Source: a virus. Taken from it: a DNA stretch of 27,975 nucleotides. The position numbers and the translations under genes were made by a program. The stretch spans positions 1 to 27,975 of IMG/VR virus record IMGVR_UViG_3300007539_000148; one strand, 5' to 3'. The notes beneath the pieces are model-generated. The model did no database searches and was not told where the DNA came from. It worked only from the letters and a program-made list of their open reading frames with translations. Positions 1,102 to 1,293 of the stretch are shown piece after piece (the stretch's first letter is position 1; each line of letters starts with the position of its first letter).

Positions 1102-1278
1102 TTACCTCTTTCTTGCTTTTTGTCTTTCTTCTTCTTCTTCGAGATATTGTTTTAGCAAAGTCACATAGATATTCCTTTCAAAAGGAATCATACTATCAAG
1201 TTCATTCAATGAATATTTATGATGTTGCATAAGTGCAAAGTTCATATGATACATATTCGTCAGTGAATCATGTATCAT
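1102..1278 (-). CDS. Small tail-assembly-chaperone-like ORF, probably read as a -1 frameshift extension of gp26
   Basis: The ORF has 58 codons (MIHDSLTNMYHMN to the basic end RQKARKR) and contains the segment LNELDSMIPFERNIYVTLL followed by a Glu-rich helix. Its ATG overlaps the gp26 stop as ATGA, and the ORF lies in the -1 frame of gp26. No Shine-Dalgarno is visible ahead of the ATG; instead there is a slippery T7 run and a hairpin whose stem contains this ATG. The likely main product is therefore a gp26 extension: 231 gp26 residues, then Tyr-Leu-Ala, then these 58 residues, 292 aa in total. The arrangement matches the lambda G/GT type of tail assembly chaperone, where a minor frameshifted form recruits tail-tube and tape-measure proteins. 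Independent translation by coupling at ATGA remains possible. Confidence 0.75.
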   Translation of the reverse strand: MIHDSLTNMYHMNFALMQHHKYSLNELDSMIPFERNIYVTLLKQYLEEEEERQKARKR

Positions 1279-1293
1279 TGCAAGGTAAAAAAA
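1246..1293 (-). promoter_or_regulatory. Candidate -1 programmed ribosomal frameshift signal at the end of gp26
   Basis: On the minus strand, seven T residues (1293-1287) are phased as T TTT TTT in the gp26 frame (codons AGT TTT TTT ACC). After an 8-nt spacer (1286-1279), a perfect inverted repeat begins: ATGATACAT (1278-1270) pairs with ATGTATCAT (1254-1246). Inside it, after one bulged G (1269), ATTC (1268-1265) pairs with GAAT (1258-1255) around the 6-nt loop ACTGAC. Slippage by -1 avoids the gp26 TGA at 1277-1275 and enters the small ORF in frame. A slippery heptamer plus a hairpin 5-9 nt downstream is the known layout of programmed -1 signals. The geometry is read directly; frameshifting itself is inferred. 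Confidence 0.75.

Follow-up and report, generated by a model that had tools for sequence, protein, structure and literature searches.

Gene 26 of an uncultivated marine T4-like phage is predicted to encode short and long tail assembly chaperones by -1 frameshifting

The DNA analysed here (hereafter, the window), a virus record 27,975 bases long, comes from an uncultivated marine T4-like phage, and all features described in it lie on the minus strand. Gene 26, at positions 1275-1979, encodes a predicted short tail-assembly chaperone (TAC-N) of 234 amino acids. Its product, gp26, is a member of the T4-like gp26 family, matching PF12322 over its full length (E 1.8e-64; 217.8 bits against a curated cut-off of 24.5) and phrog_150 (E 3.2e-67). 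The protein ends in ...GLQSFFTLQ*, and the junction that encodes this end reads AG(T TTT TTT) ACC TTG CAA TGA, in which a slippery heptamer of seven Ts (1287-1293) lies in phase with the gp26 frame and the TGA stands 9 nt on. The heptamer is followed by an 8-nt spacer (ACCTTGCA, 1279-1286) and then by a stem-loop at 1246-1278, the predicted frameshift stimulator, with 9 bp, one bulged G, a further 4 bp and a 6-nt loop. An earlier note on this DNA had described the phased T run, its distance from the stop, the spacer and the hairpin in these terms, and each is found as claimed.

The -1 frame is open from 40 nt ahead of the gp26 stop. Read from the slip, it gives a tail ('gp51', 1102-1287) of 61 codons and a stop, beginning with TAC at 1287-1285. 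This tail matches phrog_634 ('baseplate hub assembly catalyst', gp51) with E 2.1e-24, and its ORF is matched by the final part of the phrog_150 profile as well, a hint that the tail is encoded in frame in some members of the family. Contained within it is a 58-codon ORF (1102-1278, with ATG at 1278) which, as had been noted earlier, lacks a Shine-Dalgarno of its own, none being present in the preceding sequence GTCTGCAAAGTTTTTTTACCTTGCA. Together, gp26 and the tail make a long form (TAC-NC) of 292 amino acids; this figure had been given as the length of the extension and is correct for the total product, whereas the extension itself, beyond the slip, is 61 amino acids.

The next gene (755-1096) encodes 113 amino acids with hydrophobic helices and an EF-hand-like motif, for which EF-hand_5 scores 22.6 bits, under its curated cut-off. 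The EF-hand-like loop reads DANGDGHISKEE, and the gene is kept, between the chaperone and a long gene, in a related locus, L010. The long gene is rich in Gly and Ala, has no family match, and is represented in the window by its start only (2-745), as the window edge cuts the rest; its intact relative in L010 (4241-6484) encodes 747 amino acids with internal repeats. This long downstream gene, a possible tape-measure candidate, contains multiple near-identical repeats (GGNWAESIKQNVLTLLSI...), each about 70 residues long. The earlier note had placed gp26 next to a probable tape-measure gene, and a long gene does lie one small gene further on, but PHROG searches with the window and L010 copies gave no tape-measure match, and the P-SSM2 gene in the corresponding position, when compared, did not confirm that identity either.

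Related gp26 loci were compared, as the earlier note had proposed, in a set of 103 loci (13 from IMG/VR, 80 from a profile scan, nine isolate or single-cell phage records and the window) with 95 distinct junctions, Tevenvirinae/Twarogvirinae and Ackermannviridae being left out of this set. Both the T run and the -1 ORF proved to be conserved. An in-phase T_TTT_TT[C/T/A] stands 7-16 nt ahead of the gp26 stop in 103/103 loci, in most relatives as six Ts and then C, and the -1 frame past gp26 is uninterrupted for 55-68 amino acids in all but two loci that are ended by contig edges. Ten further loci agree, with tails of 54-61 amino acids, although some of them are copies of isolates already counted. 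Runs of seven Ts (or As) are scarce in the window (4 present, against 17.8 expected from dinucleotide shuffles) and the site is kept across the relatives examined outside Tevenvirinae/Twarogvirinae and Ackermannviridae/D533, so the run in gp26 is not a chance occurrence.

Codon usage at the junction is more constrained than the protein requires. The codon ahead of the Phe-Phe pair ends in T in 95/95 junctions, where synonymous usage predicts 57.6, and the first Phe codon is TTT in all 95, compared with 73% elsewhere. Junction loci share ancestry, and the relevant contrast is the internal one: within the same genes, T_TTT_TTY is found at only 11 of 102 other Phe-Phe pairs. By these counts, codon choice at the slip site exceeds amino-acid need. 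Past the slip, the second codon position of the -1 frame is the most conserved and the third the least, already within the first eight codons, and the invariant columns of the junction alignment all fall at -1 frame codon positions 1 or 2. Conservation by codon position thus shows a -1 frame that is coding from the slip onward.

A coding tail could also be a separate small protein, gp51, made by termination-reinitiation at an ATGA overlap, with the T run incidental. The ATG at 1278 does overlap the gp26 TGA in the window and its close relatives, and cyanophage annotations give gp51 a CDS of its own. However, no ATG, GTG or TTG occurs within the first 13 tail codons of 17 of the 95 junctions, 14 more have only GTG or TTG, and 63 of 64 tail ATGs are without a Shine-Dalgarno, a scarcity that tells against independent initiation as the usual origin of gp51. 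Such a protein would moreover leave the conserved heptamer and its codons unexplained, and in T4 the tail of gp51 is fused to a gp26-like domain. Separate initiation is therefore a highly improbable account of the family, while some separate 58-aa product may be made in the window's own clade through the ATGA overlap.

The window hairpin folds at -11.9 kcal/mol (z = -3.67), and none of 200 shuffles was equally stable. Across the surveyed loci, the 45-nt RNA beginning 5 nt past the slip has a mean z of -2.13, whereas offsets that do not overlap it give -0.7 to +0.2. A downstream stimulatory structure is common but not universal in -1-frameshifted tail assembly chaperones. Conservation of the hairpin with compensatory changes, as the earlier note had envisaged, is accordingly seen in part: compensatory pairs are found in relatives, but a significant post-slip stem is present in only about half of the loci and the other half are without one. 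The named stem is 73% paired in a set of 15 window relatives. At its first pair A-U, C-G, U-A and U-G all occur, six sequences have two-sided changes, and the covariation score was reached by 0/500 shuffles; a stem partner shifted by -2 scores similarly for covariation while pairing far fewer cells. Pairing was scored by such named-structure counts in place of RNAalifold, which returned no common structure on either junction alignment, probably because stem registers differ among subclades. A second stem, likewise covarying, is found in Kyanoviridae, and three loci (L007-L009) have a different pairing register and a different outer stem. An Rfam search gave only matches far below gathering scores. 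Judged from these alignments, the position of the stem is recurrent and its sequence is lineage-specific.

Transcriptional slippage, in which RNA polymerase would add or drop one base on the T run and so produce the fusion, has a homopolymer to act on. The T6 followed by C of most relatives is, however, short for such slippage, and an exact codon phase and a downstream stem are features of ribosomal rather than transcriptional slippage, so that we consider the chance of this explanation to be very slight. Homopolymer runs are also error-prone, but a sequencing or assembly error that split one intact gene is close to inconceivable, being refuted by the same split in more than 100 public records, isolates and metagenomes alike, in which gp26 stop codons and distances vary.

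The heptamer is absent in T4, Karamvirus AS6, Acinetobacter Henu6, LG358 and Klebsiella HMGUkp2. At the T4 junction the sequence is GAG TTC TTT, and the -1 frame of these five phages belongs to gene 25. A search of 18 phage records for PF12322 genes gave two in precisely these five and one in each of the other 13. In T4 gp51, residues 1-201 form a PF12322 domain (E 3.9e-52), to which the -1-type tail is fused in frame; with a gp26-like domain and this tail, it is, on sequence grounds, a paralogue of T4 gp26. This suggests a reason for the missing slip site of T4, namely that its long form comes from gp51, the fused paralogue. T4 resembles the window in its gp26 orthologue and in a gp51 that joins a gp26-like domain to the same tail. 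It differs in that the two genes stand apart, one on each strand, in that the heptamer is missing, and in that its -1 frame continues into gene 25. Cyanophage P-SSM2 (Kyanoviridae), in turn, shares the gp26/gp51 layout of the window, with T_TTT_TTC and a 10-bp stem; its gp26 is about 46% identical to that of the window, and the locus is annotated as two CDS. In cyanophage records, L016 and L031 among them, the -1 tail is annotated as its own gene, 'gp51, baseplate hub assembly catalyst'. This cyanophage 'gp51' corresponds to no more than the C-terminal portion of T4 gp51.

A further exception is found in the Ackermannviridae (L018, L025, L026 and L113-L130), where gp26 and the -1 tail ORF are kept and the heptamer is absent. 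Their junction reads ATT TTC AT[T/C] TAA in 16 distinct IMG/VR junctions (18 loci) and three isolates; Kuttervirus and Taipeivirus types have TAATT, with no ATG at the junction, and Dickeya-type phages have TAATG. Similarly, Vibrio phage D533 (L021) has both ORFs, with CTT TTC AAG TAA, no heptamer, and TAATG. Loss of the T run with both ORFs intact, which the earlier note had named as the pattern that would speak against frameshifting, is thus seen only in the distant Ackermannviridae and D533. Tentatively, and with somewhat less than even confidence, it could be proposed that a -1 frameshift with a covarying hairpin is ancestral in T4-related phages, that T4 and its allies escaped it by gene duplication, and that the Ackermannviridae use a third, undescribed route.

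Structural comparison was made with an AlphaFold2 model of gp26 (pLDDT 89.8). For residues 1-94 of the model, the best structural matches are HK97 gp13, YqbN and Rbstp2171 (2OB9, 3KLU and 3FGX), with Z of 7.6-7.8, just under 8 and in the range where the structure tool warns of common arrangements; the next matches fall to Z 5.3 (5IR0) and then 2.6. These three proteins are described as tail assembly chaperones (PMC9603447). The predicted fold of residues 1-87 matches that of HK97 gp13, on which residues 1-85 of gp26 superpose (Z 7.8, 4.2 A over 84 residues) with a sequence identity of 7%, and HK97 gp13 differs in lacking the extra domain of about 150 residues, with a Cys-x-x-Cys pair, that makes up the rest of gp26. 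Foldseek alone found no match for the gp26 model with E below 0.001. The modelled N-terminal domain is consistent with a tail-assembly-chaperone fold, as support for this assignment rather than proof of it.

Gene 26 and the 'gp51' ORF are very probably one recoded gene, in which a predicted -1 frameshift gives short and long chaperones. The lambda G/GT-like frameshift that the earlier note had proposed for gp26 is well supported by a heptamer and a -1 ORF that are conserved across species, by codon choice, by compensatory stem changes and by the predicted fold. Most ribosomes would stop at the gp26 TGA and yield the 234-aa short chaperone, while a minority, at T TTT TTT with the hairpin 8 nt ahead, would shift by -1 on the two Phe codons and translate 61 more residues to make the 292-aa long form. 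On the model of lambda gpG/gpGT, the short form may bind along the tape-measure protein, the 61-aa extension may recruit tube or hub subunits, and neither form would stay in the virion. The occurrence of slippage, its efficiency and the binding partners are inferred in this scheme. The lambda system differs in its slippery sequence and in its siphovirus tail, as opposed to the contractile tail of T4-like phages, and no sequence relation between the two is seen here.

The predicted frameshift in gp26 is not new in kind, as earlier work, represented here by the papers citing it, has already outlined a poly-T -1 signal for the TAC-N genes of T4-like phages. Vladimirov, Gautam and Davidson reportedly identified the tail assembly chaperone genes of T4-like phages in 2022 (in Virology 566:9-15). 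That study is credited in two citing papers (PMC10885494 and PMC12846349); PRFect cites it for some T4-like phages that carry a short gene and a fused long gene, and the Adele paper (2025) for -1 signals of the poly-T type in TAC-N genes of T4-like phages. As these citations present it, its TAC-N/TAC-NC belong to the same gene family as gp26 and have a poly-T -1 signal, and the window phage, uncultivated and marine, is not known to be among the phages that it covered. The earlier note's suggestion that a frameshifted gp26 links this protein to tail assembly chaperones is therefore upheld as a link, but not as a novelty. GeneTack 2013 and the pf16 paper contain nothing on gp26 frameshifting. 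In the literature searched, where Vladimirov 2022 figures through its citing papers, neither the covarying hairpin nor the Ackermannviridae exception was found, and both are apparently new relative to earlier work.

The G-T frameshift has been described as widely conserved 'except T4' in a 2016 review of recoding (PMC5009743). The present analysis indicates that relatives of T4, marine cyanophages included, do carry a frameshift site, unlike T4 itself. Small 'gp51' proteins that follow gp26 in the databases are better annotated as the C-terminal portion of a predicted frameshifted chaperone, and the 'catalyst' role of T4 gp51 in the hub can now be tested as that of a chaperone long form.
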